A stretch of 37,279 bases of DNA, from NCBI GenBank assembly GCA_028288485.1, contig JAQBNO010000178.1, forward strand, positions 1 to 37,279, written 5' to 3'. The position numbers and the translations under genes were made by a program. Source of the DNA: Segetibacter sp. GTDB lineage: Bacteria; Bacteroidota; Bacteroidia; Chitinophagales; Chitinophagaceae. Positions 1,120-37,279 of this stretch are shown in pieces; positions within the stretch are counted from its first letter, which is position 1, and each line of letters begins with the position of its first letter. The notes below the pieces were generated by a model. It was not told the origin of the DNA, ran no database searches, and was given only the letters and a program-made list of their open reading frames with translations.

Positions 1120-1178
1120 GTTGAACGGAGCGTCGCAACGATGACGACTGAAGAACGAATGCCGGTATCAAAAAAAAA
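1120..1178 (+). repeat. A-tailed ~58-bp intergenic repeat, copy 1 (CAACGATGACG type)
   Basis: It contains GCGTCGCAACGATGACG (1130-1146), then GAATGCCGGTATC, then an A-tract at 1170-1178. The copy at 24022-24079 has GCGACGCAACGATGACG and GAATGCCGGTACC with the same 21-base spacing through CCGGTA. It lies between two convergent genes. Confidence 0.65.
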
Positions 1179-1223
1179 CGGGGCAAATGTTGAAAGCTTA
1201 TGTGTTTGAAAGATTGACCTGAA

Positions 1224-1640
1224 CTACGGGTTTTTAGAGACCACATTTTCGTATTCTTTGGCAAAGATGCTCTCCAACTCTTTTTTAAGATCCTGCATGG
1301 AACTCGGCTTGGTTAGAAAATAAACAGAACCCAGTTTTCTCGTAATTTCTTTGTCTTCGTTGTTTTTAGAAGTGGAGTAAATAATAACAGGAATAGAGGC
1401 AAACTCTTCAACCTGTTTTAATTGTTCAAGGCATTGCTTGCCATTCATACGAGGCATATTGAGGTCTAAAAAGATAAAATCCGGTGCTACCTTTTTGTTT
1501 TTTAGCAGGTGTAATGCTTCCTGTGCGCCCGACGCCATCACGCACGAAATGTTGGCCCCTATTTCAGCAACAACTTCGCAGAACATTTCTTTATCATCTG
1601 CATCGTCATCAATAATTAATACAGTTAAATGTTTTTTCAT
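1224..1640 (-). CDS. Single-domain response regulator
   Basis: A 138-residue stand-alone receiver domain. The acidic residues are D11-D12-D13, the phospho-acceptor is D59 in FIFLDLNMP, the switch region is VIYSTSKN, and the conserved lysine is in FLTKPSS. No output domain follows. ATG start, with a candidate Bacteroidota promoter just upstream (see 1667-1674). It is divergent from the CheB/CheR-kinase fusion, which starts 361 bases away, so the intergenic region may regulate both. The receiver identity is clear; a phosphorelay with the divergent kinase is inferred from proximity. Confidence 0.93.
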   Translation of the reverse strand: MKKHLTVLIIDDDADDKEMFCEVVAEIGANISCVMASGAQEALHLLKNKKVAPDFIFLDLNMPRMNGKQCLEQLKQVEEFASIPVIIYSTSKNNEDKEITRKLGSVYFLTKPSSMQDLKKELESIFAKEYENVVSKNP

Positions 1641-2001
1641 TTAGGGTTGGAAATTGTAAATAAAAACAAAGGTAAAACTATCGATTACTGTAAGAGAATT
1701 TTAATGGTTTTTTAATTAAGCGCATAATATTTGCATTATTCAAAAACAATAGTAAGTTGCATTACGTGACGTTATTTGCAGCAGGAAGAAGAATATTTTG
1801 GTGTATTTCATTCTTTTATTCCTTCTGATATAGATAATGTGCAATTAGGGTTTTAAGAGATATTAAAATTTAAAGGAAGTCTGTAGCAATTCTTCACCAA
1901 AACAGAATACCACTTATCTTATTTTAGTAATTCCCTTTAAAACTATTTTTAAAATAATACAAACCCTCAAGGTAGATAACCTGTGTATATAGCATAACCT
2001 T
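1641..2001. other. Divergent intergenic region (response regulator / CheBR-kinase)
   Basis: This 361-base AT-rich region must hold the promoters for both divergent genes. Apart from the TACCTTTG element on the minus strand I see no strong motif, no hairpin with a T-tract and no short gene. Confidence 0.5.
1667..1674 (-). promoter_or_regulatory. Candidate Bacteroidota -7 element for the response regulator
   Basis: The minus strand reads TACCTTTG, an exact match to the TAnnTTTG -7 consensus of Bacteroidota housekeeping promoters, 26 bases upstream of the ATG at 1640. No good TTTG -33 element is evident, so this is a moderate call. Confidence 0.4.
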
Positions 2002-5823: not shown

Positions 5824-5860
5824 ACTTTTTGAGGTTTTTTATAGGAGTTGTTTTTGGGAT

Positions 5861-5918
5861 TCTTTGTTCACCAACTTATGAATATCTATTTAGCTCCGGT
5901 TGTGTCACTCACTTGTAC
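5861..5918 (-). repeat. A-tailed ~58-bp intergenic repeat, GTACAAG type
   Basis: On the minus strand it begins GTACAAGTGAGTGACACAAC, continues CGGAGC and ends CATAAG..GGTGAACAAAG. The first 20 bases are identical to those at 22584 and 34235. It sits about 40 bases after the CheB-CheR-kinase gene. Confidence 0.75.
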
Positions 5919-6078
5919 TGCATATCATTCTCCTCGTCATTGCGAGTGGTTAATTTTTTAACCAAAAAAGTTCTTTGAATATGATATGATATTTTAAGTG
6001 TTTTATTGGTTTTTCGTCTTTCATTAACTGTAGTGTTGTCACTTTCTTTTATCTCGCGAAATGTTTAAGTTTTTATTG

Positions 6079-6135
6079 GTTTCCATGAATGTTTCGCATT
6101 TCCTTGGTGAGACGAAAGTAACCGGCGACGAAAAA
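6079..6135 (+). repeat. Diverged A-tailed repeat, CCGGCGACGAAAAAT type
   Basis: Its 3' half GTGAGACGAAAG..CCGGCGACGAAAAAT matches the element at 19411-19468. The 5' half has diverged, so membership of the larger repeat family is tentative. Confidence 0.4.
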
Positions 6136-6182
6136 TCAAGAAAGGAAAGATTACATCCCTTTCCTTTCGTTGTTCCTTGATT
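6134..6182. repeat. Nested inverted repeat
   Basis: The inner arms AAAGGAAAG (6141-6149) and CTTTCCTTT (6159-6167) are perfect with a 9-base loop; the outer arms AATCAAG (6134-6140) and CTTGATT (6176-6182) also pair. It could be a transcript 3'-end structure for either convergent gene, but there is no clean T-tract. Confidence 0.5.
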
Positions 6183-6345
6183 AAGCTTTTGTACTACTGT
6201 GAGGTTCAGCATTGGTTTTTCATGCTGTTTCAGCTAAAGCTATAAACGCGCAAATGGCTGCCGTAATAGACAATTAGTCACTTAAATCCTTATAATTGCT
6301 AGCGATTACCGGCTGCTTTGCTTGTCACAGTCAGCGTGTCGAAGT

Positions 6346-6386
6346 GTTGCACATCTTATTGCCGGGCGTTGCCCATCTTAGTGCCG
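6346..6386. repeat. Short tandem duplication
   Basis: Two adjacent imperfect copies of GTTGCMCATCTTAKTGCCG (6346-6364 and 6368-6386), about 22 bases apart. A shortened third piece (GCCGGGCATCTT) follows at 6409-6420. No coding or RNA signal is evident. Confidence 0.45.
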
Positions 6387-6490
6387 TTGCATGGCTTCGA
6401 TAAACTCAGCCGGGCATCTTTCTCCCCCCAATTGGTTAACGTGCGTTTAGTGCAGGGGGATCAATTCCTGCCTGGCTAAGCTGGTGCATT

Positions 6491-7495: not shown

Positions 7496-7496
7496 G

Positions 7497-7630
7497 CCAC
7501 TTATACAGTCAATATTCGTGCCCCCGATAGTATGATTTTTAAAAACGGCAATCAGACTTTTATGATAATACCGGCAAGTATAGGAGGGCTGATAATGTCA
7601 TAACAACACGGCGAGGCAACGTATAAGTGG
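7497..7630. repeat. Intergenic segment bounded by 10-bp inverted repeats
   Basis: CCACTTATAC at 7497-7506 is perfectly inverted as GTATAAGTGG at 7621-7630. These arms bracket almost the whole gap between the CheB gene and the receiver gene. There is no visible target-site duplication, so a small inserted element is only one possibility. Confidence 0.4.
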
Positions 7631-9709: not shown

Positions 9710-9712
9710 CTG

Positions 9713-12383: not shown

Positions 12384-12549
12384 AATAATAATGTATGGAT
12401 ATTTAAGGACATATAATACGCGGTAAATGTAGACCAAATAGAAGTATAAGTAGTTATTGATTTCTCCTCGATTTTCGATTCGAAATGCTGGGGGTAATAG
12501 ACTTTTTATTACCAGGATCACAACTTTAAACGTTCCATGGAAAGATGCG

Positions 12550-12607
12550 GTAGAAGTGAGTGACACAACGGAAGCTGAAGTGAAACTATATGGATGGCCC
12601 CAAAAAA
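12550..12607 (+). repeat. A-tailed ~58-bp intergenic repeat, GTACAAG type
   Basis: It begins GTAGAAGTGAGTGACACAAC (one mismatch to the copies at 22584 and 34235), continues CGGAAGC and ends GGATGGCCCCAAAAAA. Confidence 0.72.
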
Positions 12608-12663
12608 TTCCACTCAAAAGATCCTTACCCCGACGCAACCTGGAAACGAAAATAGAAATAAAA

Positions 12664-12688
12664 AGGTGGCCTTTTTTAAAGGCCACCT
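12664..12688 (-). terminator. Rho-independent terminator of the aconitase gene
   Basis: An 11-bp stem, AGGTGGCCTTT / AAAGGCCACCT, with a 3-base loop, followed on the minus strand by TTTTTATTTCTATTTT. It starts 27 bases beyond the aconitase stop codon. Confidence 0.85.
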
Positions 12689-12714
12689 GGTGATAAGATT
12701 ATAAGTGAACAGAT

Positions 12715-15006
12715 TTAAGCATTTACAACCTGTTGTTGCGCCTCTAATGCTTTTCTGCGAATAATATTCAATGCAGCACCGGCCTTAAACCATTCAATCT
12801 GCTGTTCGTTATAAGTATGATTTGCAAGAATGCTTTCCGAAGTTCCGTCAGCATGGTGCAACACCAAAGTCAAAGGAGTACCTGGTTCAAAATGGTTTAA
12901 TCCTTCGATGTCGATAATGTCATCTTCCAGGATCTTTTCATAATCTGTTTTATGGGCAAAAACAAGTGCCAGCATACCTTGTTTCTTCAGGTTAGTTTCA
13001 TGAATACGTGCAAACGATTTCACCAGTATTGCACGAACTCCTAAATGCCGGGGCTCCATAGCCGCGTGCTCTCTTGAAGAACCTTCACCGTAGTTTTCAT
13101 CACCCACCACTATACTTCCCAAACCAGCGGCCTTATATGCTCTTGCAGTAGCAGGAACGGGTCCGTACTCACCGCTTAACTGGTTCTTTACTTTATCAAC
13201 GGCGTCGTTGAAATAGTTCAGGGCACCAATCAGCATGTTGTTCGAAATGTTATCTAAGTGTCCGCGGAACTTCAACCATGGACCTGCCATTGAAATATGG
13301 TCGGTAGTACATTTTCCTCTTGCTTTAATGAGGAGGCGTAAACCTTTAATATCTGTTCCTTCCCACGCAGGAAACGGTTCGAGTAATTGAAGACGCTGAG
13401 ATTCGGGACTTACCAATATTTCAACATTGCTTGGATCTTCGGCTGGTGCCTGGTAACCTGCATCTTCAACAGAAAACCCTTTTGGAGGTAATTCAAAACC
13501 TGTCGGTTCGTCTAGTTTAACCTGCTCCCCATTTTCGTTTAACAATGTATCGGTAAGCGGGTTGAAAGTAAGATCGCCGGCAAGCGCAAAGGCAGTAACA
13601 ATTTCAGGAGACGCCACAAAAGCATGTGTTCCTGCATAACTATCGTTACGTTTTGCAAAGTTTCGGTTAAAAGAAGTAATGATGGAGTTCTTACGTGTAG
13701 GGTCATCAATATGACGGGCCCACTGACCAATGCAAGGTCCGCACGCATTTGCTAATACCAGGCCTCCCATGTTATCATAAGCTTTTAACCAGCCATCTTT
13801 TTCCACTGTGTATCTCACAAGTTCACTACCCGGAGATATTGTAAATTCAGATTTGGCTTTCAGTTTTTTATCTACCGCCTGCTGCGCTATTGAGGCAGAG
13901 CGGCTGATGTCTTCATAAGAGCTATTGGTGCACGAACCAATCAATGCTACTTCAAGTTTTTCGGGCCAGTTGTTTGCTCTTACCGCTTCAGCGAAACGGC
14001 TGATAGGCCAGGCAAGATCGGGAGTGTACGGCCCGTTGATATGCGGTTCAAGTTCACTCAGGTTGATTTCGATAACCTCGTCGTAATATTTTTTAGGAGC
14101 TGCAATTACTTCAGGATCGGGACGAAGATGGTTCATTATTCCATCGGCTAATTCAGCAATACCCGCCCTGTCCGTTACTTTTAAATAAGCGCTCATTCTT
14201 TCGTCGTAAGGAAATATAGAGCAGGTTGCGCCTACTTCGGCACCCATATTACAAATGGTTGCTTTACCGGTTGCACTGATAGCATCCGCGCCTTCTCCAA
14301 AATATTCAACAATTGCTCCGGTTCCGCCTTTTACTGTCAGGATGCCTGCAACTTTAAGAATGATGTCTTTAGGTGCGGTCCAGCCACTCATTTTACCGGT
14401 CAGTTTTATACCGATTAGTTTAGGCCATTTCAGTTCCCATGCAAGGCCTGCCATTACATCACTGGCATCAGCTCCACCTACACCTATCGCAATCATACCC
14501 AAACCACCAGCATTAGGTGTATGGCTATCTGTACCGATCATCATTCCACCCGGGAATGCGTAGTTCTCTAAAACAACCTGGTGAATAATTCCTGCACCTG
14601 GTTTCCAGAAACCAAGACCATATTTATTACAAACCGAAGCAAGAAATTCATATACTTCTTTGTTTGTATTCATTGCTGTGATTAAATCTTCGGCTGCACC
14701 AGTCTTTGCCTGTATTAAGTGATCGCAATGGACAGTGCTGGGAACAGCTACTTGTGGACGACCTGCCTGCATAAACTGCAGCAAGGCCATTTGTGCTGTG
14801 GCATCCTGCATGGCTACACGATCCGGCGCGAAATCTACGTAATGCTGACCACGCTCGAAATGTTCAAGTGGCATGTCGGTGTGCAGGTGAGCAAATAATA
14901 TTTTCTCTGCTAAAGTTAAAGGCCTGCCTACCACCGTACGCGCTGCTTCAATTTTGCCGGGCAGTTCTTCGTAGACTTTTCTGATCATTTCTATGTCAAA
15001 TGCCAT
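12715..15006 (-). CDS. acn: Aconitate hydratase (mitochondrial-type aconitase)
   Basis: A 763-residue TCA-cycle enzyme that converts citrate to isocitrate using a [4Fe-4S] cluster. The cluster ligands are C359 (GSCTNSS), C422 and C425 (ACGPCIG); their 63- and 3-residue spacing equals that of the animal mitochondrial enzyme. The C-terminal swivel domain has [17 protein letters not shown]. The length fits the family. ATG start at 15006 with a candidate promoter at 15042-15073 and a strong terminator at 12664-12688, so it is a single-gene unit. Nothing suggests damage or transfer. Confidence 0.97.
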
Positions 15007-17443: not shown

Positions 17444-17539
17444 CTTTTAAGCATACTTTCTTCGTTACGAAATAGCCGGCAGGGGAGAGGAAATTCAAGG
17501 CGTCTTATACTCTTACGGCTTTCTTTAGCTTGACCTTTA

Positions 17540-17598
17540 TTTTTTTTGTTTCCAGCAGCACCATTTCTATTTGGCCTCGTTGCGTCGCACTCTTTTAC
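17540..17598 (-). repeat. A-tailed ~58-bp intergenic repeat, GCGACGCAACGA type
   Basis: The minus strand reads GTAAAAGAGTGCGACGCAAC, then GAGG, then GGTGCTGCTGGAAAC and eight A residues. It links the two main sequence types: its first 20 bases align with GTACAAGTGAGTGACACAAC and its core with GCGACGCAACGATGACG. It lies between convergent genes. Confidence 0.6.
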
Positions 17599-17703
17599 TG
17601 CAACGGGAATGGCAGCAACTATTGCAACTTTTAAAGCCCTTTCCGAATGCAACGTGGTAATGCTACGGATAATTCAGACAATTCCATTTTTTCCCCTTCT
17701 GCA

Positions 17704-19344: not shown

Positions 19345-19410
19345 TTACAAGCAGAGTTCGCTGCCATGAAAAGATCCGGTATCGCGATTTATCGGGAAGT
19401 GACATTACCA

Positions 19411-19468
19411 AACGGATTCATGCGGACAACAGGCGTTGTTGTGAGAAACAAATGCCGGCGACGAAAAA
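19411..19468 (+). repeat. Diverged A-tailed intergenic repeat, CCGGCGACGAAAAAT type
   Basis: It carries ACAAC at the position expected for the family and CAAATGCCGGCGACGAAAAA at the end, giving a 58-base unit. The 3' half matches 6107-6135. Confidence 0.45.
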
Positions 19469-19582
19469 TATAAACTAGCGTCATGTCAAACGTCAAAGGT
19501 CAAAATGAGAAGGTCGTTTTTTCCTTTGACGTTTCGCTGGGCAACAATTTTAAGTTGACCCGGTACTACAAACTGGCTAAAT

Positions 19583-19618
19583 AAAAAAAGTCCCACAATC
19601 AGCAGCGGGACTTTTTTT
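19583..19618 (-). terminator. Bidirectional rho-independent terminator
   Basis: AAAAAAAGTCCC (19583-19594) and GGGACTTTTTTT (19607-19618) form a 12-bp stem around a 12-base loop. It has T-tracts in both directions and can end both the protease gene and the TerC gene. Confidence 0.8.
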
Positions 19619-19647
19619 ATATATATAAAATATTACAGAGAGAAATG

Positions 19648-20760
19648 TTACCTCGTAAAGCTTCTTACCATAAATACGCAATCTTCTATTTGCTTAACCT
19701 GTTGAACCCTGTCCATTCCTTTCATTTTTGAAATTGAAGGTGCTTTTAATTTGTTATAAGAGGTATCTTCTTTTTTGAGTTCTTCGATTGCCTGGTAAAC
19801 GTTTCTTGAATTAAGGGCAAAAACAACTCCGTCGGCTTTAGTTTCCCTCGTGCTTAAAATGCCGATTACCTCTCCGTTGTGGTTAAAAACGGGTCCGCCA
19901 CTATTTCCCGGATTGGCACTAACTGCGATCTGGCAACTCATTGTATCGCCCTTGAAGCCGGTTTTAGCACTCATATAACCTTCGTTATATACAATTTCGT
20001 CGCGGGGATAACCAAGAGTGAAAATCTGTTCGCCCAAATCAGCAGAACTTTTACGAATGCTGTAAGGCAGGGCAGTTATAGGTTTATAGTCTTCATCGTC
20101 GATTTTTAGAATAGCAAGGTCTTTCTCGTTATCAACATGCACGATGATTGCTTTAAATTCCTGACCTTTATTGTTTTGAACAAGAATGGTAGAAGAACCG
20201 GCAACAACATGGGCATTGGTCACGAGGTATCCTTTACCGTCGATAAGAAAACTGGAACCTCCGTTTAAAGCTACTTCGTTTATGGGTGCTTTTGACGATT
20301 TTATCACGGCGTTTAACTTGTTGCCCTGTACCCGCACGTTTTGCATAACCTGGTCGATTTTACGGTTTAGCTGTACGATCTGGGTTTGATTAGATGAAGG
20401 AGAAAAGTACGTAACAAGGCCACTAATAACTAAAGCGGTAACACCGGCAATTGACGCTGCGATCCCGGTAACCCTTCTGTATTTGTTCCAGAATTGAATA
20501 ACTTTCCCCCTGGGTGTCACCGCATTCTCACTTATTTCACCAGCTTCTTCTAACTGCTTGTGCACCTCATGCAACTGGTGTTTAAACTCGCGGTTGTAAC
20601 CGTAAGCATCGATCTGGTGAAGAAACATACTATGTTCCACCACCATTTGGTCTACCTCAGGAACATCTTTACGGAGTTGTTCAAAGCGCGCCTTTTCAAC
20701 GTCGCTTAGGTCTCCTTTAAAGTATCGTTCGGTGGTGTCTAATAATAAAATGTCGTCCAT
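19648..20760 (-). CDS. Membrane-tethered HtrA-like serine protease with anti-sigma-like N-terminus
   Basis: A 370-residue protein starting at the ATG at 20760 (a GTG lies immediately before it). Residues 1-90 are hydrophilic and helical, of the kind found in cytoplasmic anti-sigma domains (YFKGDLSDVEKARFEQL). One transmembrane helix (about 99-119) follows, a short coiled coil, then a trypsin-fold protease with H184 (TNAHVV), D214 (NEKDLAIL) and S287 (NPGNSGGP). No PDZ domain follows. It begins 3 bases after the sigma-factor gene. The arrangement suggests that the N-terminus holds the sigma factor while the protease domain works in the periplasm. Anti-sigma function is inferred; the protease is clear. 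Confidence 0.88.
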   Translation of the reverse strand: MDDILLLDTTERYFKGDLSDVEKARFEQLRKDVPEVDQMVVEHSMFLHQIDAYGYNREFKHQLHEVHKQLEEAGEISENAVTPRGKVIQFWNKYRRVTGIAASIAGVTALVISGLVTYFSPSSNQTQIVQLNRKIDQVMQNVRVQGNKLNAVIKSSKAPINEVALNGGSSFLIDGKGYLVTNAHVVAGSSTILVQNNKGQEFKAIIVHVDNEKDLAILKIDDEDYKPITALPYSIRKSSADLGEQIFTLGYPRDEIVYNEGYMSAKTGFKGDTMSCQIAVSANPGNSGGPVFNHNGEVIGILSTRETKADGVVFALNSRNVYQAIEELKKEDTSYNKLKAPSISKMKGMDRVQQVKQIEDCVFMVRSFTR

Positions 20761-20763
20761 CAC

Positions 20764-21330
20764 TTATTCTCCTATATTATATTGCGAAAAAAATAATTTT
20801 TTTAATCTCATCAGACATTTGTATTTCTGGTTTTTGGCATTATCGGCATTTGTGTAACCAAATGAAGCGGCAATATCAGTCATGTCTTTCTTTTCGAGGT
20901 AATAGGCTTCAAGTAAACTTTTGCAAGGTTCACCAAGGCTTCCTAAAGCCCTTTCCATGATGGCAAAATCCGCATTTCGCTTTTGCTGGAAATCTATGTC
21001 TTCTTCAACTGAAACAGTTTCTTCGAGGCTTTCTACCGGTGTCGTAAAGCGGTTAAGATATTGGAGCCGCTTCAACCACAACCTCCTGCAAATGCTATAA
21101 ACGTATGTTTTAATCTGGCAGGTTAATACAAATGATTCCAATTTTGCATTTTCATAAAGCACAATCATTGCTTCCTGAAAGATATCCCTCGCATCGTCAT
21201 AAGTTCCATTGTTATTTAATACAAACGATTGAACCATTGTAAAGTTGTTCTTATAAATCGTTTCAATGGCCTTTGCGTCATTTTTTGCCAGTCCTTTCAA
21301 TAATACCTGTTCGTTGAATTCGGCTTTCAC
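20764..21330 (-). CDS. ECF-type RNA polymerase sigma factor
   Basis: A sigma-70 family protein of the extracytoplasmic-function class. Region 2 is visible as YDDARDIFQEAMIVLYENA and region 4 as CKSLLEAYYLEKKDMTDIA with the following helix (NAKNQKYKCLMRLKKLF). I choose GTG at 21330 (188 residues, starting at KAEFNEQ) because the longer frame needs a TTG at 21372 and its extra residues are not typical of the family; no ATG is available. It is the first gene of a two-gene unit with the tethered protease. Confidence 0.88.
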   Translation of the reverse strand: MKAEFNEQVLLKGLAKNDAKAIETIYKNNFTMVQSFVLNNNGTYDDARDIFQEAMIVLYENAKLESFVLTCQIKTYVYSICRRLWLKRLQYLNRFTTPVESLEETVSVEEDIDFQQKRNADFAIMERALGSLGEPCKSLLEAYYLEKKDMTDIAASFGYTNADNAKNQKYKCLMRLKKLFFSQYNIGE

Positions 21331-23663: not shown

Positions 23664-24040
23664 TCAGTTAATGTCGTGTCCTTCTTCCAGCTTTATAACC
23701 TCTTCAACAAACTTTTTATTTGGTTGATCAGGAGCAAGAGGCAAAGCGAGCCTGGCATTTTTGACGGCGTTTTTATGAGCTGCATTGGGCGGATAACCTC
23801 TCATTAATCCAGCTAATGTTGTAAATCGTTTGGGTTCTTCTGGAAATTCATTTTAAATACCTCCAGTTCTTCCCTGGCCTTTTTCTGCTGAGGCAATGAT
23901 CGTGCATAGGCATGCAGCTCCTGTAGATCTGCAAGAGGCAAAGCTGCGTTCATAATTGCATCTGCTTCCGCCGTACGGCCTAACTTATTTAAAATTTGTC
24001 GACCTGTTTGAATTGGTTGAGTTTTCTTTGGTACCGGCAT
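23664..24040 (-). pseudogene. Truncated, frameshifted TPR-like C-terminal remnant (long DUF2911-type)
   Basis: A frame from 24040 to 23813 encodes 75 residues containing LNKLGRTAEADAIMNAALPL and LEVFKMNFQKNP, then stops. The next frame immediately continues with TLAGLMRGYPPNAAH, ALPLAPDQPNKKFVEEVIK and LEEGHDIN, ending at 23664. Adding one T to the run at 23823-23825 (plus-strand A residues) rejoins the two as one protein ending. From memory this resembles the TPR-like tail of long DUF2911 proteins in Chitinophagaceae. The N-terminal domain is missing, and the apparent ATG belongs to an intergenic repeat (24022-24079). So both a 5' truncation and a frameshift are visible. Confidence 0.7.
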
Positions 24041-24079
24041 TCATTTGCATGGCGTCATCGTTGCGTCGCAATTCGTTCG
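24022..24079 (-). repeat. A-tailed ~58-bp intergenic repeat, CAACGATGACG type
   Basis: The minus strand reads GCGACGCAACGATGACG, then 21 bases ending AATGCCGGTACC, then AAAGAAAA. It matches copy 1 (1120-1178) base for base in the core. Its ATGCCGG provides the apparent start codon of the neighbouring gene remnant. Confidence 0.65.
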
Positions 24080-24238
24080 TCGGCAATACTATCAGGAGCT
24101 GCAGGCTTGTCTTTTAGTCACCCTGAAATCCCCATTTTATTACAGTTGGCTGAAGTTTAGTTGAGGCATAGTGCTACTCTTCGGGGTGCCGGTTATTTTG
24201 GAAGTTATTAAAATCTTAAATGCGGCGGACCTCGATCT

Positions 24239-25801: not shown

Positions 25802-26079
25802 AATTTTCGATTAAATAATTCCCTTTTTTTAGATACCTGGCTACGTTACCGTTGGCCAGAGTTTACTGTTCCACTTTTTTATTAAATAAAGTATATGTTA
25901 CTACTTCAATTTCTCTGCCTTTCTTTATTTATTCTGAAAAAGGCGAAAATGTGAAGAAATTGTAACACAGTTGATAGAGCCATTTGTTTACTGAAGCAGT
26001 GTGTAAAATTTAAACGGCTTAAGTATTGCAGACAGAAGCTGCCTCCAGAGTTGTGGATGAACGGGTTGCCACCTCGCCA

Positions 26080-26141
26080 AAGGGATCCGTTCGAACAACG
26101 ATGAAGCTACGAATAACCCAGGCTGGTACACCTAAAAAAAA
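26080..26141 (+). repeat. A-tailed intergenic repeat, CAACGATGA type
   Basis: It contains GTTCGAACAACGATGAAG, then GAATAACCCAGGCTGGTAC and an eight-A tract. It aligns with copy 1 (1120-1178) with small spacing differences. Confidence 0.5.
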
Positions 26142-26330: not shown

Positions 26331-29300
26331 ATGAGTAATGAAACACCTCCATTCACGGCCTCGTCCGATCATATTCTAGATACGCCTGTTGATGATGTAA
26401 CTATTACACCCGCAACGAAAAAAATAACAAAAAAGAAAAGTCTGGTGACTTCACAAAGTGCAGCTTCTGTTGAAGACGAACTTGATACAAGGGAATTGCT
26501 TAAAGTTCTGTCGGAAGTGCGAAACGGAAATTTTGACGTGCGGATGTCAATAGATAAAGTAGGCCTAAGCGGGAAAATATGCGACACGTTGAACGAAATT
26601 ATCTCGTTAAATGAAATTCTCGAAAGGGAATTGATGCTGGCTCGAAATACTATCGGTAAACAGGGCAAGCTAACTCACCGGGTTGAACTACCCAAATATG
26701 CAAGAGGCTCGTGGAACTCTGGAGTAGAATCAATAAACTCACTCATCTCCGACCTTGTTCATCCTACTGTTGAGATTGCCAGTGTAATCAGCTCGGTTGC
26801 AAAAGGCAACCTGTCGCAGGAAATGCCGTTGAAAATAGGTGATCACGTATTGCAGGGAGAATTTAAAAGGATTGCGACCGAGGTTAACGACATGGTGAAG
26901 CAGTTAAACCTGTTTTCCATGGAGGTGACCCGTGTGGCACGTGAGGTGGGATCTGAAGGTAAACTGGGCGGACAGGCGAAAGTAAAAGGTGTGGCTGGTG
27001 TGTGGAAAGACCTCACCGACTCTGTAAACCAGATGGCGGGTAACCTTACGGCACAGGTGAGGAATATTGCGGAAGTGACTACCGCGGTGGCAAAAGGAGA
27101 CTTATCGAAGAAAATTACGGTGGATGTACAGGGTGAGATCCTTGAATTGAAAAATACTATTAACACGATGGTTGACCAGTTGAACTCCTTTTCATCGGAG
27201 GTAACGAGGGTTGCACGTGAGGTAGGTACCGACGGTAAATTGGGTGGACAGGCAGGTGTACCGGGTGTTGCGGGGACGTGGAAGGATTTGACGGACTCTG
27301 TAAACCAGATGGCCTCTAACCTTACAGCCCAGGTAAGAAACATTGCGGAAGTAACAACGGCCGTTGCAAAAGGTGACTTATCGAGGAAAATTACGGTGGA
27401 CGTAAAAGGAGAGATCCTGGAGCTCAAGAATACGATCAACACGATGGTGGACCAGTTGAACTCGTTCTCAGCCGAGGTAACGAGGGTGGCGCGTGAGGTA
27501 GGATCGGAAGGAAAACTGGGTGGACAGGCAACTGTAAAAGGTGTAGGTGGGGTATGGAAAGATTTGACAGAATCAGTAAACCAGATGGGTAGTAACCTTA
27601 CTGCCCAGGTAAGAAATATTGCAGACGTAACTACGGCTGTGGCCAACGGTGACCTTTCGAAAAAGATCACCGTGGATGTGCAGGGAGAGATCCTTGAACT
27701 GAAGAACACCATTAATACCATGGTGGACCAGTTGAACTCTTTTGCCTCGGAGGTAACGAGGGTTGCACTTGAGGTGGGTACAGAAGGTAAATTGGGAGGC
27801 CAGGCTAAAGTAACAGGTGTGGGCGGTACCTGGAAAGACTTGACAGATTCAGTAAACCAGATGGGTAGTAACCTTACTGCCCAGGTAAGAAATATTGCCG
27901 AAGTAACTACGGCTGTGGCAAACGGTGATCTTTCGAAGAAAATTACTGTGGACGTAGCGGGAGAGATCCTGGAACTTAAAAAGACCATCAATACGATGGT
28001 GGACCAGTTGAACTCTTTTGCCTCGGAGGTGACGAGGGTGGCGCTGGAGGTAGGTACAGAAGGTAAACTGGGCGGCCAGGCAAAAGTGCACGGTGTGGGT
28101 GGTACGTGGAAGGATCTGACAGAATCGGTAAACCAGATGGGTAGTAACCTTACTGCCCAGGTTAGAAATATTGCGGATGTGACGACGGCGGTTGCGAAAG
28201 GGGACCTGTCGCGTAAGATAACGGTGGATGTAAAAGGAGAGATCCTCGAGCTAAAGAACACTATTAACACCATGGTTGACCAGTTGAACTCTTTTGGTTC
28301 GGAGGTATTCAGGGTTGCACGTGAGGTGGGTTCTGAAGGTAAACTTGGTGGCCAGGCAGATGTGCCAGGTGTGGAAGGTCTGTGGAAAGATCTGACGGAC
28401 TCGGTGAATAAAATGGCATCTAACCTTACCTCGCAGGTAAGAAATATTGCGGAGGTAACTACAGCCGTCGCCAACGGTGACCTTTCGCGAAAAATTGAGG
28501 TGGACGTTAAAGGCGAGATATTAGAACTTAAAAACACCATTAATACGATGGTGGAACAGTTGAGAGCGTTTGCATCGGAGGTAACGAGGGTTGCCCGTGA
28601 GGTAGGTACGGAAGGTAAACTTGGTGGGCAGGCCCACGTTCCTGGCGTTGGTGGTACATGGAAAGACTTAACCGACTCTGTAAACCAGATGGCCGGTAAC
28701 CTTACTGCACAGGTACGTAACATTGCCGATGTGGCTATTGCGGTGGCAAACGGAGACATGTCGCGGAAGATTACGGTGGACGTGCGGGGAGAGATTTTGC
28801 AATTGAAAGAAACGCTGAATACGATGGTTGACCAGCTTCGTGCCTTCGCTTCGGAAGTAACGAGGGTGGCCCGTGAAGTAGGTACCGATGGTAAACTGGG
28901 TGGACAGGCATTCGTACCGGGAGTAGCTGGTACCTGGAAGGATTTGACTGACTCTGTTAACCACATGACTGGTAACCTGACGTCGCAAGTGCGTAACATT
29001 GCAGAAGTAACAAAGGCCGTGGCTTCGGGTGACCTTTCGAAGAAAGTAACGATCGACGTTAAAGGCGAGATCCTTGATTTAAAAAACACCATTAATACTA
29101 TGGTGGACCAGTTGAACTCATTCGCCTTCGAGGTAACAAGGGTTGCCCGTGAGGTAGGTACCGAAGGTAAACTGGGTGGACAGGCAGAGGTGCAGGGTGT
29201 AGCCGGTACCTGGAAAGACTTGACAGACTCGGTGAACATGATGGCCTCTAACCTTACCAACCAGGTGCGTGGAATTGCAAAGGTAGTAACGGCGGTGGCA

Positions 29301-32300
29301 AGCGGTAACCTGAAACAAAAATTATCCATCGTGTCTCGAGGTGAGGTGGCTCAATTGACGGATACCATCAACGAATTGATTGATACCCTTGCTGTATTTG
29401 CTGACCAGGTAACAACAGTTGCCCGTGAGGTGGGAGTGGATGGAAGATTGGGTGGACAGGCAAGTGTGCCGGCGGCTTCGGGGACATGGAAAGATTTGAC
29501 AGAGAACGTTAACCAGTTGGCGGAAAACCTCACAACGCAGGTGCGTGCGATCTCTGAGGTGGCCTCTGCGGTAACAAAGGGTGATCTGACCCAGATGATT
29601 CGTGTGGAAGCAAAAGGTGAAGTGGAAGAACTGAAAGATACGATCAACCAGATGATCGCCAACCTGAAAGAAACGACGTTGTTGAACCAGGAACAGGACT
29701 GGTTGAAGTCGAACCTCGCGAAGTTTACGCAGATGTTGCAGGGACAGAAGGATCTGAATACGGTAACACGCCGAATTCTTTCTGAACTTGCCCAGGTGGT
29801 AAATGCACAGCAGGGTATGTTCTATATCCTGGAACAAAGCGAAGAACAGAAAAACCAAAAATTGAAACTGTTTGCTTCTTATGCGCATAATAACCTTCTT
29901 GATATGAACAGGGAATTTGCCCTGGGAGAAGGTCTTGTTGGACAGTGTGCGGCAAACAAGGAAAGAATTCTATTATCTAACCTACCTAAGAATTATATAA
30001 AAATTGGTTCAGGTTTGGGTGAAGCCGTTCCTGCCAACCTGATCGTTTTACCGGTATTATTCGAAACTGAAATTAAGGCGGTAATTGAACTGGCTTCATT
30101 TGACAACTTTAGTGAAACACACTTAGACTTCTTAAGCCAGCTTACAGAAAGTATCGGTATCGTATTAAATACGATCGAAGCGAACTCAAGAACGGAAGAT
30201 CTGCTTGAACAGTCACAATCGTTAGCAGATGAATTAAGAAGAACGAACGAAGAATTACAGGATAAAGCTCACCTGCTGGTGAAGCAAAAGGAAGAGGTGG
30301 AAGCGAAGAACAAAGAGGTGGAAGATGCAAGGAAATCGCTGGAGGAAAAGGCAGAACAGCTCCAGTTAACCTCCAAATACAAATCGGAGTTCCTTGCAAA
30401 CATGTCGCACGAGCTACGTACACCGCTTAACTCGCTGTTAATACTGGCGCAACAATTGTTTGAGAACCATGAAGGAAACCTGTCGGAGAAACAAGTGCAG
30501 TATGCCAAAACAATCCATAGCTGTGGTGACGACCTTATTCAACTGATCAACGACATTCTTGATTTGTCTAAAATTGAGTCAGGTTATATATCTACACATT
30601 TCATCCATGTTCGCTTCAATGAAATTGCTTCGTTTGTAGAAACAACCTTCAAGCACATTTCAGAAAATAAGAACCTTAAGTTCAACATTGAAATGGATAA
30701 GGAGTTACCCGGAAGCCTTGAGACCGACGTTCAACGCCTTAACCAGATACTTAAAAACCTCCTTTCAAATGCCTTTAAATTTACTGATAAAGGTGAAGTA
30801 AAACTAAGGGTCTACGAAGCAAACCGCAATTGGAAACTGATGAACCCGAGCCTGGATAATGCAAGCAGGGTAGTCGCATTCGAAATAAAAGACACCGGGA
30901 TAGGTATTTCAAAAGACAAGCAGAACATTATATTCGAAGCCTTCCAGCAGGCAGAAGGTTCAACGAGCCGGAAATATGGTGGAACTGGTTTAGGACTTTC
31001 TATCAGCCGCGGACTCGCAGACCTCCTGGGTGGAACAATTGAACTGGAAAGCGAAGTAGGAAGAGGAAGCACCTTTACATTATTCCTCCCTACGGAATAT
31101 AACCCTTCGCTTCTTAAAAAAGAAAAGCAAAGCAGCCTTAAAATAAGCCAGTATGAATTGGCCCACAACGATGAAAAGCTGAGTATTCAGTCTGTTCCGA
31201 CTATTAAGATCTCAGAACCGAAAGAACTGGAAGTTCTAAATGAAATAATCAATGAGTCAGGTGACGACCGCAATAATATTGTGAGTTCCGATAAGGTTGT
31301 ATTGGTTATTGAAGATGACGTCAGGTTTGCACGAATCATGATTGAAAAAGCACACGAAAAAGGTTTGAAGGTAGTCGTGGCTTCTACTTTTGGAGAAGTT
31401 TTTGACCTGGCAAACCGTTTCAGGCCAATAGCTGTAACGTTAGATGTCAAACTACCGGATGCAAGCGGCTGGAAAATCCTGGATCTCTTTAAGAATGATG
31501 TCAACTTTCGCCACATCCCCGTTCATTTAATTTCAGGTGAAGAAAACCGCTTGTTGGCAATGCAACGTGCAGCAAGGAGCTTCCAGTTGAAGCCATTAAA
31601 AAATGAAGCTTTAACGGTTTTATTTACCGACGTACTCGAGTATTCTGAACGCAGCCCTAAAAGAGTATTGGTCGTTGAAGACAACGAATTAGACTCGTCA
31701 CAAATAGCTAAGATGTTAGCCAACGATAGCCTGGTTGAAATAGAAATTGCTTCAACCGGTAAGCAGGCACTGGAGATGATCAGGGAAAATGTGTACGATT
31801 GTATTACCGTAGATTATATGCTACCTGATATCACAGGAATGGCGTTTGTGACCGAAATTAATTCTATCAAGAAGTTGCAGATGACACCTGTCCTGATCTA
31901 TTCTGCAAAAGACTTTTCTCCGAAAGAAAAAACCCAGTTAAAACAGTACGCCAACCGTATTCTTTTAAAAGATGTGAACTCCCTTGAGTTGTTGCTTGAA
32001 GAAGTTGTGTTGCACTTGCACATCAACCAGCAAGACCTGTTGCCGGAAAAGCGGAAGATCATCGAGAATTTAAAGTCGAGGGAAGATGTACTGGCAGGAA
32101 AAACAGTATTGGTGGTGGATGACGATGTTCGTAACCTGTTTGCACTAACTACCGCATTTGAGCGTTATAACATAAATGCCATCACTGCTGAAAGCGGCCA
32201 GGAGGCAATTAACCTGTTAACCGAAAATAACAGTGTCGATATTGTGCTCATGGATATCATGATGCCGGAAATGGATGGTTACGAAACAACGCAGAAAATA

Positions 32301-32465
32301 AGACGTGAACATAAAAACACGAATCTGCCAATTATAGCAGTTACCGCGAAAGCGATGAAAGGCGACAGGGAAAAATGTATTGATGCAGGAGCTTCAGATT
32401 ATATAACCAAACCGGTTAAGATCGACCAGCTACTTTCGTTAATGCGTGTATGGTTGTACAAATAA
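26331..32465 (+). CDS. Poly-HAMP soluble hybrid histidine kinase with GAF and three receivers
   Basis: A 2044-residue cytoplasmic protein. After a short disordered N-terminus there are three HAMP-like modules (about 50-190), then ten tandem units of exactly 92 residues (195-1114), each a pair of HAMP modules ([18 protein letters not shown]; then [17 protein letters not shown]), giving about 23 HAMPs. A GAF domain (about 1130-1285) and coiled coil lead to H1360 ([13 protein letters not shown]) and an ATPase domain ([16 protein letters not shown]). Three receivers follow with phospho-acceptors D1705, D1828 and D1975. There are no membrane segments. The architecture recalls group III (Nik1/Os-1) fungal osmosensor kinases, in which the HAMP array is the sensor. 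Three receivers allow internal phosphorelay. The next gene is a receiver-kinase on the same strand. Confidence 0.97.
26913..29672 (+). repeat. In-gene tandem array, ten 276-bp units
   Basis: Ten head-to-tail 276-bp units, all in frame and with no length change (92 codons each). Units 1-8 are very similar; units 9 and 10 are the most diverged. This DNA is a likely site for recombination, copy-number change and assembly error. Confidence 0.95.
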
Positions 32466-32512
32466 GATTTATTTCGGGAATATTGTTTCCGAAAGGATGG
32501 ATTGGGACAATA

Positions 32513-32571
32513 TTTTTTTTGAGCCAGGTAATATTGCGGGTATGATTCATCGTTGCCTCCGATACAACGGA
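32513..32571 (-). repeat. A-tailed intergenic repeat, GGCAACGATGA type
   Basis: The minus strand reads CGGAGGCAACGATGAATC, then GCAATATTACCTGGCTC and eight A residues. The end CCTGGCTCAAAAAAA recurs at 37257-37279. Confidence 0.55.
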
Positions 32572-32654
32572 GCGGTTCCAGGTAGTTTTTCATAGCAGCC
32601 CGGAACCAGAGCTTAGTCAAAGGGTAACCCGGGCCTCACGAAGGATCACACTCG

Positions 32655-32687
32655 GGCACAGTTTGTAGCCGTTTGACAAACTGTACC
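32655..32687. repeat. Inverted repeat upstream of the receiver-kinase gene
   Basis: ACAGTTTGT (32658-32666) and ACAAACTGT (32676-32684) are a perfect 9-bp inverted pair with a 9-base loop, extended by GG/CC pairs. It lies 40 bases upstream of the ATG at 32723 and could be an operator or an mRNA hairpin. There is no T-tract. Confidence 0.5.
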
Positions 32688-32722
32688 GGGTTTTGCGAAG
32701 CAAACTATAAGAACCAAGTATA

Positions 32723-34024: not shown

Positions 34025-34608
34025 AAAGTTGACAGATGGCATGACAGCCGGTATTTAATGGATGACTTTTGGCAGTTGACCGGTGACGGTTGAAGATGAG
34101 CAGAAGACTGTCGACAGAGACCGGCAAACGGATTATCGATATATGATTGCATGACCGTTGGCCGTAAAATGTTTCCAGGAACACTGCTATGTATAATTCT
34201 TGCTAAACCCGGCCGGCCGCTATGAAAAGATAACGTACAAGTGAGTGACACAACCGGGGCAGAATTGGAAAACATAAGCCGGTACAAAAAACTAACAGCA
34301 TAGATTCAAAATTGCCCTTTAATTGATATTGCCTGAACATTTGCCTCCGATGTAGGGGCGCCCCGAAGAAATATAAAGCAATAGAAACTGATTTCCTACT
34401 GTTTCTACCCGCACTTCTATATTACCACCCACATTAAATTTATTGCGATCTGTTTTAAGATTTGTATCTTAACTATCACATTTCCAAAAGATAATGAAAA
34501 TTAGCGTTATTTGTGGCAGGTGGAATTTGAGGTATAACGGAACATTTTGTGATTGATCTTGCAATAAGACATTCAATGCTTGGTTTACACTTACATTATT
34601 AAAGTTTG
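34025..34608. other. Intergenic region upstream of the outer-membrane protein gene
   Basis: A 584-base gap holding one A-tailed repeat (34235-34291). The first 100 bases have repeated GTTGAC/GGTTGA-like words. No gene, RNA or clear promoter is seen; ATTAAAGTTTG just before the ATG is near but not equal to the -7 consensus. Confidence 0.45.
34235..34291 (+). repeat. A-tailed ~58-bp intergenic repeat, GTACAAG type
   Basis: It begins GTACAAGTGAGTGACACAAC, then CGGGGC, and ends CATAAGCCGGTACAAAAAA. Together with 22584-22641 and 5861-5918 it gives the best definition of the unit. Confidence 0.75.
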
Positions 34609-37215
34609 ATGATCAGACAACACACAATATTTACCGGTGCTTTATTAAAAAACCTTGTTGTCTGCTGTATTCTTTCATTTTTTCTTCAGACTTCTTTTGC
34701 CCAGGTAACCAGGGAAATAGCCGATAGTGTTACTGTTTCTATTGCTAAGGAATATGATGAGGTTAGTAGTTTTCATCGCTTCGTTTTAGGAGAAAGTTAC
34801 CGCAAACTTTGGGCAGAACCCGTAAGAATAAAAGTGTTTCACCTTGAGAAAGAAAAGGGGGGATTAACCATAACACAAAGAGGCGGTGGGCTGCAAACAA
34901 AATCGTTAAGGCTTAAAGATGCACAGGGTAGGGAATGGGTATTAAGGACTATTCAAAAATACCCTGAACAAGGTTTGCCGGAGAAACTAAGGAAAACAAT
35001 CGCCAAAGATATTTTACAGGACCAGGTTGTTACCGGACATCCTTATGCAGCCTTAACAGTTCCTCCTTTTGCAAAGGCGCTCGATATTCCGCATGCAAAT
35101 CCTCAAATCGTTTTTGTGCCTGATGATCCTGCTTTGGGATCATATCGTGGCGATTTTGCAAACTCGGTTTTGTTGTTTGAAGAAAGAGAGCCGGACTCAT
35201 TAAAGACGGATAACTCAGAAAAAGCGCAGAGTAAATTACAGGAAGATAATGATACCAGGATAGAGCAAAAGCTAGTGTTAAGAGCACGGCTGCTCGACTT
35301 GTTATTGGGCGACTGGGACCGGCATGAAGATCAGTGGAGGTGGGAAAAGAAAAAAGAAAAGAACGCGACAGTTTATCTTCCTCTGCCGAGGGATCGCGAT
35401 AAAGTTTTCTATAATACTTCTGGCGTACTTCCATGGCTACTCTCACATCAGTGGCTTAAATCGAACCTGCAGGGGTTTCACGAAGATATAAGAGATATAG
35501 CTGGCTACAATTTTAATAACCGCTATTTCGACCGCTACTTCTTAACCGCGATGAGCGAAGATGACTGGAAAGAGCAAATTCAGTATGTTCAACAGAAGAT
35601 TACTGACAGTCTTATAAGGAGTTCGATTAAATTGCTGCCGCCAAATATTTATGATCTGTCGGGCGAACAAATAATAAATACCTTAATTGCCCGGAGAAGT
35701 ATTTTGTTAAAAGAAGCATTAAACTATTACCGGTTTATCTCCAGGTATATAGATGTTCCGGCTTCAGATAAACACGAGCTTTTTGAAATCAAACATGGCG
35801 CAAACGGACATCTGGACCTCACGATTTATAAAACAAAAAAGGATCATACCAAAGACAAAGTAATTTATCGACGCGATTTTGATCCCGCCATTACTAAAGA
35901 AATAAGGCTGTACGGGTTTGCGGGCAATGACGTTTTTTCGGTTACCGGCACTGAAAAATCACCGATAAAAGTGCGTATGATAGGTGGGGACGATGTTGAT
36001 AGTTTTTATGTAGACCCTCTATTGCACAGCCGGTCTACATTAGTAGTGTACGACCGATTTGGTGAAAACAATAAATTACCGGCTCGTGGCCAGGCTGCCA
36101 TTCGTATTTCTACAGATAGCACCGTTAATACTTTTGATAAGCGTAGCTTTAAGTACGACCAGTTCGGGCCGGCTCTATTAATTCAATATAACCTCGACCA
36201 GGGATTTCAATACCGCGCAGGTATAAGGTATCAAAAGCATGGTTTTCGAAAGGAGCCTTATGCAGCCCGCCACGAGTTGTTTGGTAATTATTCCACTGTA
36301 CGTGCCTCTTTCCTGTTTACCTACGAGGGCGACATCCGGAAGTTTATCGGTCAAAATGATTTAACCGTCAATATTTTATCAAGGGGACCTCATAATGTTA
36401 GTAATTTTTACGGAATAGGAAATGAAACATCTTTTATAAGAACGGAGGACAAAGGCATATCGTATTATCGAAACAGGTACGATTATGTAAACGGCGATGT
36501 AAGGTTAAAACGAAATTTGGTAAAGAACTTTACAATAAACGCAGGTTTAGCCGCGCAGTATTATACGAGTTCGTCGGAAAATAACCGCCGTCGTTTTTTA
36601 AATGATTATAACTTCCTTTACCCTGAAGATAAAGTTTTTGCAAACCGTTTCTATGCAGGAGTTGCGATGGGGCTATCGTATAAGACACGTAAAGATGAGA
36701 TGCTGCTACACAAGAAAGGTGTTTACTGGAATGTCGACGCCAGGGCTATGCAGCAGCTTAACGGGGAAGAGAAATCTTATGGCCAGGTTACTACAGAATT
36801 CGATTTTTACATACCTGTTTTTAACGACACAAATATTATTATTGCCAACCGCTTTGGTGCCGGTACAACAATAGGAAAGCCTGCTTTTTTTCAGCAAATG
36901 CAATTAGGAGGCGTTCGCAACCTTCGCGGTTTTCACTCAATACGTTTTACCGGTAAAAGTATGGTTTACAACAACGTGGAGTTGAGAGTGAAACTATTTG
37001 ATTTCACTTCATTTCTTTTGCCCGGCACCGTTGGCCTTATTGGTTTTAACGATGTTGGCAGGGTATGGGTTCCCGGTGAGTCATCCAATAAATGGCACGA
37101 TGGCTATGGTGGCGGATTATATATTATTCCTGCTGATTATGTTCTGATACAAGCTGTAATAGGGCATTCAATAGAAGGTACACAACCTTTTATAACCATA
37201 GGGATGCAATTTTAA
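34609..37215 (+). CDS. Secreted GDWDRH-domain protein fused to an Omp85/BamA-type barrel
   Basis: An 868-residue outer-membrane protein. I start at the ATG at 34609, because the preceding in-frame TTG at 34606 adds only one residue. A signal peptide (about 1-31, ending SFA) is followed by a periplasmic region of about 300 residues with LKDAQGREWVLRT, D235-W-D237-R-H239 and PRDRDKVF (D262, D264). The C-terminal half is a beta barrel with YGIGNETS, the LRGF motif (GGVRNLRGF) and a terminal Phe, as in BamA/TamA proteins. In many Bacteroidota proteins this domain sits after a metallophosphoesterase; here that domain is absent. The DRH and DRD motifs recall HipA/PI3K-like catalytic loops, but that similarity is speculative. 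Confidence 0.88.
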   Translation: MIRQHTIFTGALLKNLVVCCILSFFLQTSFAQVTREIADSVTVSIAKEYDEVSSFHRFVLGESYRKLWAEPVRIKVFHLEKEKGGLTITQRGGGLQTKSLRLKDAQGREWVLRTIQKYPEQGLPEKLRKTIAKDILQDQVVTGHPYAALTVPPFAKALDIPHANPQIVFVPDDPALGSYRGDFANSVLLFEEREPDSLKTDNSEKAQSKLQEDNDTRIEQKLVLRARLLDLLLGDWDRHEDQWRWEKKKEKNATVYLPLPRDRDKVFYNTSGVLPWLLSHQWLKSNLQGFHEDIRDIAGYNFNNRYFDRYFLTAMSEDDWKEQIQYVQQKITDSLIRSSIKLLPPNIYDLSGEQIINTLIARRSILLKEALNYYRFISRYIDVPASDKHELFEIKHGANGHLDLTIYKTKKDHTKDKVIYRRDFDPAITKEIRLYGFAGNDVFSVTGTEKSPIKVRMIGGDDVDSFYVDPLLHSRSTLVVYDRFGENNKLPARGQAAIRISTDSTVNTFDKRSFKYDQFGPALLIQYNLDQGFQYRAGIRYQKHGFRKEPYAARHELFGNYSTVRASFLFTYEGDIRKFIGQNDLTVNILSRGPHNVSNFYGIGNETSFIRTEDKGISYYRNRYDYVNGDVRLKRNLVKNFTINAGLAAQYYTSSSENNRRRFLNDYNFLYPEDKVFANRFYAGVAMGLSYKTRKDEMLLHKKGVYWNVDARAMQQLNGEEKSYGQVTTEFDFYIPVFNDTNIIIANRFGAGTTIGKPAFFQQMQLGGVRNLRGFHSIRFTGKSMVYNNVELRVKLFDFTSFLLPGTVGLIGFNDVGRVWVPGESSNKWHDGYGGGLYIIPADYVLIQAVIGHSIEGTQPFITIGMQF

Positions 37216-37256
37216 AGTTCGTGTAATCTATACTACTCGTTGCTGGAGGTGTGTTG

Positions 37257-37279
37257 TTTTTTTGAGCCAGGCATTGCGA
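37257..37279 (-). repeat. A-tailed intergenic repeat, truncated by window end
   Basis: The minus strand reads TCGCAATGCCTGGCTC followed by seven A residues, matching the 3' end of the copy at 32513-32571. The rest lies beyond the window. Confidence 0.5.

Follow-up and report, generated by a model that had tools for sequence, protein, structure and literature searches.

A ~80-bp intergenic repeat family of Segetibacter and other Chitinophagaceae, tentatively read as a polar, putatively protein-bound boundary site

The window considered here is the whole stretch of 37,279 nucleotides analysed from a Segetibacter sp. assembly (GCA_028288485.1, contig JAQBNO010000178.1, forward strand), and the element in question is a short A-tailed repeat that recurs between its genes. 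A preliminary description had listed eleven copies of it and a possible twelfth, with a unit length of 57-62 bp. All twelve stretches were inspected in place and the repeat is real, its profile scoring far above chance with 0 matches in the control: eight are profile matches, two are long variants whose core halves are separated by ~22-24 nt (the stretches at 19411 and 26080), and one, at 37257, is cut by the window edge, while the one at 6079 is doubtful. The profile is an iterated model of 86 positions, built from both sequence types named in the preliminary description, and matches are counted at E ≤ 0.1; hits above this value are uncounted, except that E ≤ 1 was accepted for a possible partner in the synteny test between genomes G009 and G005. 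Gene calls come from a purpose-made open reading frame (ORF) caller based on codon usage, not from a published gene finder. The term "own genome" will be used for the window's assembly, and its relatives carry labels such as G003-G034, of which G034 belongs to another genus. The copies in the window are the following:

1115..1178, plus strand: unit, profile E 2.9e-10, subtype ..GGAGCGTCG-CAACGATG, flanked by convergent genes
5858..5927, minus strand: unit, profile E 3.3e-9, subtype GTACAAGTGAGTGACA-CAACCGG
6079..6135, plus strand: possible degenerate unit, doubtful, not a profile match; CCGG..AAAAA end only, core absent
12528..12609, plus strand: unit, profile E 4.9e-11, GTAGAAGTGAGTGACA-CAACGG
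17539..17614, minus strand: unit, profile E 1.1e-12, GTAAAAGAGTGCGACG-CAACGAGG, flanked by convergent genes
19390..19468, plus strand: long variant, not a profile match, split core AAGTGACATTACCAAACGGATTCATGCGGA-CAAC..GCCGGCGACGAAAAA
22562..22641, plus strand: unit, profile E 3.4e-12, GTACAAGTGAGTGACA-CAACGGTG
24021..24092, minus strand: unit, profile E 1.9e-6, CGAACGAATTGCGACG-CAACGATG
26059..26141, plus strand: long variant, profile E 9.9 (noise level), assigned by pattern, CACCTCGCCAAAGGGATCCGTTCGAA-CAACGATG..GCTGGTACACCTAAAAAAAA
32511..32559, minus strand: unit with altered core, profile E 1e-3, ..CGGAGG-CAACGATG
34220..34292, plus strand: unit, profile E 5.2e-9, GTACAAGTGAGTGACA-CAACCGGGG
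37257..37279, minus strand: A-tract end of a possible unit, by sequence alone, cut by the window edge

Searched genome-wide, the profile gave 113 matches in 437 kb and 225 in 837 kb of the own genome, far beyond chance since the reversed control gave 0 in both sets, and extrapolation from the larger set leads to an estimated ~1,700 copies in the whole genome. By pattern, the 20-mer GTACAAGTGAGTGACACAAC is found at 601 places in the genome with up to three mismatches (reversed-pattern control, 0), and GCGACGCAACGATGACG at 438 (control, 9). Across 38 copies of the own genome and 110 of public records, the conserved stretch begins near -22 and ends near +58 relative to the 20-mer, so that the unit is longer than first described and spans ~80 bp. 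The two sequence types share more than the A-tract, namely the core, a GCTGAATA-type 5' flank and the GCCGG block, and it is confirmed that the ~58-bp stretches belong to one ~80-bp intergenic repeat family.

A unit consists of an A-rich part with GCTGAATAGAA..TGCA, then GTACAAGTGAGTGACA-CAACGATG, TTGAATAGAA.., GCCGG..CC and finally AAAAAA. The core, 18-20 bp long and non-palindromic, reads AAGNGNGYGNNRCAACNATG (also written AAGTGTGCGACGCAACGATG); its flanks are A/T-rich and degenerate, the A-tract lies ~50 bp downstream, and four core columns are invariant in an alignment of 101 units (of the 107 with E ≤ 1e-3, 6 being omitted). It occurs in discrete subtypes, namely ..GAGTGACA-CAAC, ..GTGCGACG-CAAC, ..GAGCGTGG-CAAC, ..GAGCGTAG-CAAC and ..GAGCGTCG-CAAC, the analysis of which omitted the 4 of 113 units without CAAC or CAAG at the expected place.

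Among relatives, a sequence-only model found units in 28 of the 59 genomes searched; all 28 are among the 36 from the window's own family, and the 23 from other families gave none. At most 76 candidates per genome were scored, and the resulting counts are not copy numbers. A pattern scan of named genomes returned at least 106 stretches, mostly from Segetibacter, Ferruginibacter, Niabella, Foetidibacter, Limnovirga and unnamed Chitinophagaceae, with some of those listed labelled Bacteroidetes, Bacteroidota or Sphingobacteriales alone. Across nine genomes of the same genus, the number of 20-mer places (up to two mismatches) ranges from 1 to 724. G007, also of this genus, has 16 model matches among the 76 candidates scored and the other eight relatives all reach 76; either loss of the family or a branching of G007 before its expansion could account for this scarcity. 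Exact matches of the 16-mer AAGTGAGTGACACAAC are present in 27 stretches of IMG/VR viral contigs (L219-L245), which may represent prophages, host contamination or phage-borne units. A plasmid search with the consensus gave no match, and full-text literature searches, covering listings, abstract starts and passages, returned no description of such a family in Chitinophagaceae.

Conservation of the units locus by locus, together with their spacing in each direction, points to a function rather than to ordinary jumping DNA. The aligned blocks of G009 and G005 are ~73-89% identical, with a mean protein identity of 77% (57 reciprocal pairs), and 20 of the 21 G009 units that have a syntenic place in G005 are matched at it by a unit of identical orientation, one further unit being present in G005 only. 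For the window's unit at 17539..17614, G005 also has a unit (C116:35032-35095) after the corresponding gene. Ungapped identity between the two genomes is 0.93-0.95 in the core (-14 to +3), 0.81 from +4 to +7, 0.69 from +8 to +19, and 0.35-0.58 further out. Mean core identity is 0.933 between orthologous partners, whereas shuffled partners give 0.734 and at most 0.833 in 2000 shuffles; thus each locus has its own subtype, and purifying selection acts on the core at individual loci, amid intergenic sequence that has otherwise drifted.

The second line of evidence is the distribution of the units along the chromosome, for which same-strand hits within 30 bases were merged in the counts of neighbour orientation and of mutual nearest neighbours; G009 and G005 share orthologous units, and statistics pooled over the four genomes are therefore not independent. 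Neighbouring units are in opposite orientation in 164 of 214 cases in the own genome, 53 of 76 in G009, 63 of 85 in G005 and 120 of 139 in G034, the maxima of 2000 permutations being 137, 53, 57 and 94, respectively. Pooled, the neighbours are opposite in 237 of 301 pairs of single units, and mutual nearest neighbours are inverted in 205 of 215; single units less than 2.5 kb apart are inverted in 92 of 96 cases. With one, two, three, four, five, and six or more intervening genes, alternation amounts to 67/73, 72/83, 40/50, 31/41, 9/17 and 18/37. Long-variant units, found with a separate pattern, are opposite to their standard neighbour in 11 of 12 relations within 3 kb and in 12 of 19 within 6 kb. 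G013 is uninformative as a replicate, with 10 units in 400 kb and 5 of 9 neighbours opposite.

Gene strand is rejected as the cause of this alternation, given that single genes are bracketed by inverted pairs irrespective of their strand (82 of 90 over four genomes). Exclusive pairing of neighbours is rejected as well: opposite orientation is weaker next to a doublet (80 of 127), the singles flanking a doublet are random relative to each other (8, 7, 6 and 7), and the alternation is largely due to spacing inside each orientation. The spacing of the units is more even than chance, with a coefficient of variation (CV) of 0.51 vs 0.80 at one unit per region. For units of the same orientation in the own genome (n=203), the median distance is 6.9 kb and the CV 0.46, compared with 0.87 for random intergenic positions and 0.65 for permuted labels, and 4.9% of the distances are below 3 kb (random, 30%; permuted, 15.6%). 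G034 has a median of 4.5 kb, a CV of 0.34 (random, 0.76; permuted, 0.51) and 0.8% of its distances below 2 kb (random, 24.8%; permuted, 7.9%), and G005 a median of 6.9 kb with a CV of 0.57 (random, 0.90; permuted, 0.76).

The two orientations were related to each other in a shift test, in which the minus series is moved against the plus series with the spacing inside each preserved. Regions with both orientations number 31 in the own genome vs 31.1 after shifting, 10 vs 10.1 in G005, 7 vs 6.1 in G009, and 40 vs 33.1 in G034, the latter just over the 95% range of 27-39. Shifted series also reproduce most of the alternation between singles (own genome, 0.734 of 0.826; range 0.672-0.793). Avoidance is therefore strong inside each series while the two series are nearly independent, so that each direction holds its own spaced-out set. 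Pairs within the same region are mostly head-to-head (27 of 31 in the own genome, 37 of 37 in G034, 10 of 12 in G005, 4 of 7 in G009), and their arms share a subtype no more often than chance (8/27 vs 7.3; 25/37 vs 23.1). As a separate observation, 7 of 36 same-region pairs of G034 (L258-L277) overlap in a palindromic joint (GTTGCGTCGCAC..TTCAGCTGAA..GTGCGACGCAAC); two of the five joints displayed are perfect palindromes and three have mismatches, and some pair spacers hold a further repeated A/T-rich palindrome.

With respect to genes, the preliminary description had placed all copies between them, and this holds on the larger scale: 111 of the 113 matches in 437 kb are intergenic, one of the other two falling within a called gene and one at a contig edge, and 219 of the 225 in 837 kb lie between two called genes, with 3 inside genes and 3 at contig edges. 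Considering intergenic regions of at least 150 bp in 837 kb, units occupy 47 of 69 convergent, 117 of 218 tandem and 20 of 75 divergent ones, or 184 of 362 overall, about half. In 175 of 219 units a gene border lies closer to the A-tract end than to the other end (median 61 vs 212 bp), and in tandem regions the A-tract end points toward a stop in 86 cases and toward a start in 56. No bias of orientation with GC skew was found (90:103).

The idea of a transcribed 3' element, also raised in the preliminary description, finds no support, as there is no conserved RNA fold (RNAalifold predicts 0 base pairs over 101 units) and the direction of a unit depends hardly at all on the strand of the genes. 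A stem ending at CAAC, with a score of at least 8 and above all 20 shuffles of each sequence, occurs in 10 of 111 units (2 of the 113, without CAAC or CAAG at the expected place, being omitted); another group of units has short CCACGCT/AGCGTGG stems, and in some units and subtypes a CCCTTCGACAAGCTCAGGGT-like hairpin lies just upstream. In the search for an intrinsic-terminator hairpin abutting the A/T run, mean fold energy was -4.2 vs -3.9 for shuffled sequence and -4.7 further out, and values below -8 were found beside the A-tract in 12 of 113 units vs 17 of 113 further out. An A-tailed retroelement or group IIC-intron-like insertion at terminators was likewise discarded, the few striking A-tract hairpins not exceeding chance among the 113 units. 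A hairpin or RNA panhandle between neighbours was dismissed because their overall subtype concordance is no higher than background, with the exception of some classes of few pairs in G009 and G005 (e.g., 12/23 vs 0.35 background). Protein coding was also rejected: the core gives V-Q-x-[SC]-[DV]-[TA]-T in one frame and the long variants look codon-like, but many copies, examined by eye, have in-frame stops.

Some further observations concern the surroundings of the units. At three loci of G000 (C13:95356, C146:22397 and C217:5675, in L015, L019 and L029) the unit appears to be broken past GTGCG(A), where a CCCTTCGACAAGCTCAGGGT-like hairpin block and then a second core take over, as though the core were a target of some other REP-like (repetitive extragenic palindromic) element. 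In the window, Rfam gave 0 matches at gathering score, and three weak ones far under it are outside the unit cores, at 12652-12758, 19582-19677 and 20751-20819. A 2,044-aa ORF at 26331-32465 contains nine to ten tandem 276-bp repeats and, judging from the surrounding genes, may encode a multi-repeat sensor kinase. The genes bracketed by units look ordinary by eye, no search of them having been made.

From the sequence, placement, conservation and spacing observed, we infer a protein, a polarity of action and a process, and we propose, tentatively and at somewhat less than even confidence, that the repeat is a polar, putatively protein-bound intergenic boundary site with a host function. Its 18-20 bp core would most likely be bound by a putative sequence-specific DNA-binding factor; the lack of a conserved RNA fold and the near freedom of orientation from gene strand suggest that it is read by a protein as double-stranded DNA. 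Each site would act one way, such that a second site of the same direction within ~3 kb would be redundant and one of opposite direction would not, and avoidance inside one orientation is the signature expected of a polar site that is redundant when repeated the same way. The most likely process would be a boundary, effective one way, for machinery that travels along the DNA, with transcription that leaves gene blocks, or runs antisense into them, as the foremost candidate because divergent regions are avoided, the units sit at gene borders and the A-end faces stops more than starts; recombination, uptake and translocation are other polar processes that might be served. The family probably arose by copying within Chitinophagaceae and was later retained for a boundary role. 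Accordingly, of what the preliminary description had suggested, the single family stands and the protein-binding element, itself proposed from sequence, fits best; spread by copying is plausible as an origin, given the one bacterial family, the lineage-specific variants and the range of 1 to 724, but does not make the units drifting mobile DNA now, since they are kept at 20 of 21 syntenic places with a selected core; and mobilisation in trans and the 3' element find no support. A wider picture, which we regard as rather doubtful, would be a chromosome-wide lattice of one-way boundary elements, selected at some 1,700 loci and dividing the chromosome into direction-specific segments, in which each direction would have its own series of one putative protein-bound site per ~4.5-9 kb, rarely less than 2 kb apart.

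Several results weigh against the polar boundary site. Between the own genome and the more distant G009 (62% protein identity), both have a unit at 5 of 10 unit-bearing syntenic regions, the remaining ones having a unit in the own genome only (3) or in G009 only (2). The same-orientation CV of G009 is not low (1.21 vs 0.98 random and 1.19 permuted), although short distances are depleted there nonetheless (2.7% below 3 kb vs 17.4% random and 9.8% permuted). Alternation between singles exceeds the shifted 95% range in all four genomes, leaving some coupling of orientation unexplained, and 14 long-variant units add 6 alternating and 8 same-orientation pairs (164:51 becoming 170:59). As for the process, the weak tie of orientation to gene direction (86:56) does not single out transcription, and intrinsic terminators in the 437 kb are at least as frequent at gene ends meeting the A-end first (24 of 71) as at those without units (18 of 78), with 6 of 45 where the 5' end comes first, so that the site is no simple substitute for a terminator.

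Other explanations share part of this evidence. A DNA uptake signal, similar to the uptake signal sequences (USS) and DNA uptake sequences (DUS) and acting in a naturally transformable Bacteroidota lineage where biased uptake and recombination preserve and spread the cores, would agree with ~1,700 copies (extrapolated) divided equally between strands relative to GC skew, with a non-palindromic core in A/T-rich flanks, with dialects between genera and with orthologous conservation. We nevertheless consider it unlikely, because uptake that is independent of orientation, as reported in passages of PMC1939737, predicts avoidance among all neighbours, and the distribution here has it mainly inside one orientation; because 3 of 225 units lie inside genes, compared with 65% and 35% of the uptake sequences of two species in the same passages; and because USS are said, in part of PMC7811141, to arise by point mutation and not by insertion, whereas ~80 bp are common to the units. 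ComEC (PF03772) does not discriminate: it is present in the own genome and in five unit-free genomes and was not found in the unit-bearing drafts G005 and G025, and hence does not follow the presence of units. The spacing and alternation might instead be by-products of avoiding nearby direct repeats that would delete the genes between them, in line with the rarity of same-orientation singles closer than 2.5 kb (4 of 96) and the distance of doublets from other units (9 of 91 single-doublet and 0 of 21 doublet-doublet neighbours below 2.5 kb). This is a quite remote option: identities of ~20 bp should recombine too rarely unless a site-specific recombinase acts, in which case flipping of inverted pairs would be expected; gene order and the orientation of the units are, however, preserved, and core conservation is left unexplained.

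The units could also be a non-autonomous mobile family moved in trans, like REP elements and their doublets (REPINs) or miniature inverted-repeat transposable elements (MITEs), with the singles as remnants of head-to-head doublets, which would be in keeping with the very high copy number, the intergenic and family-specific occurrence, the 1 to 724 places between congeners, the mostly head-to-head arrangement of same-region pairs in three of four genomes, the palindromic joints in G034 and the CCCTTCGACAAGCTCAGGGT-like hairpin of some subtypes. Against this, same-region pairs are at the independent expectation in three of four genomes and slightly above it in G034, doublet arms share subtypes no more than chance, singles are conserved at syntenic sites, the unit is no palindrome, and Y1 transposases do not track the units. 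We judge the mobile family improbable overall, though a MITE origin is conceivable. Mobilisation by a REP-associated tyrosine transposase (RAYT) was rejected because Y1 transposases do not track the units: of the genomes tested, 8 of 9 with units and 4 of 6 without them have Y1 transposases (PF01797), unit-rich G033 has no PF01797 match with at least 76 units, and G007 has 7 with its 16 units among the 76 candidates scored. Nor does a repeat-associated transposase emerge from the 27 PF01797 loci (79.9 kb), which hold 9 units in 6 of the loci. The idea that each unit is one terminal inverted repeat (TIR) of a larger element, its partner having diverged, was set aside, no such partner being found near singles, where 0 of 122 5' flanks score above 6 on the minus strand. 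The single intact Y1 transposase found in the own genome (L137, G000:C195:8051-8395 and flanks) is trailed by small palindromes, GTTGGGCTCTGCCCAAC and GTTGAGCTCTGCTCAAC, unlike the repeat studied here.

Two results were unexpected, namely the selection of the core at the level of the locus and the avoidance within, and not between, orientations; such avoidance is a statistical hallmark of polar sites and could be sought in other phyla. If the polar site is correct, a selected site is present in about half of the intergenic regions that reach 150 bp (184 of the 362 in 837 kb), and a single short oligonucleotide could capture the putative factor. If the lattice were real, it would be a functional parallel in bacteria to oriented insulators, and an uptake signal, should the units prove to be one, would be the first in Bacteroidota as far as the literature searches, of the extent given above, show.

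The family can finally be set beside known systems. Like the USS of Haemophilus and the DUS of Neisseria (~1,500-2,200 copies per genome), it is abundant and strand-symmetric, with a non-palindromic core, A/T tracts and dialects; for H. influenzae, parts of PMC7811141 report 1,465 core or 2,206 motif copies of USS, AT-rich flanks and lineage-specific motifs. It differs from them in having an 18-20 bp core within a ~80-bp unit, in being ~99% intergenic and in its same-orientation avoidance; even spacing of uptake sequences is attributed to Karlin et al. in a passage of PMC1939737, and the same discussion, as well as text in PMC7811141, describes the USS distribution as not that even or uneven. 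The likeness to REP/REPIN elements with RAYT lies in the short, intergenic units, the hundreds to thousands of copies and the head-to-head pairs, whereas the repeat unit is non-palindromic, its pairs are about as frequent as expected by chance, its singles are conserved and no transposase matches; according to sections of PMC3116915, REPIN doublets make up 61% vs 17% expected, singlets are less conserved, and the REPs of P. fluorescens have no distance effects beyond 400 bp. CGTC-tagged REPs, described in part of PMC3733652 as stem-loops of 20-40 bp without a dedicated transposase and present in Bacteroidetes among other phyla, resemble the repeat in the CGTC on one strand (GTTGCGTCGC) and differ in that a stem clearly exceeding the shuffled sequences is present in 10 of 111 repeat units. 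Subclasses of Y1 transposases from Bacteroidetes do exist, as noted in a passage of PMC6006769. Intrinsic terminators have in common with the family the position near gene ends and the A/T run, but no hairpin abuts the A/T run here beyond chance. The REPIN, intrinsic-terminator and plain uptake-sequence readings each fail at least one test (among them the doublet excess, the hairpin and the irrelevance of orientation, respectively). The repeat is therefore filed under none of USS/DUS, REP/REPIN or CGTC-REP, and its broad kind is that of the abundant short intergenic signal families.

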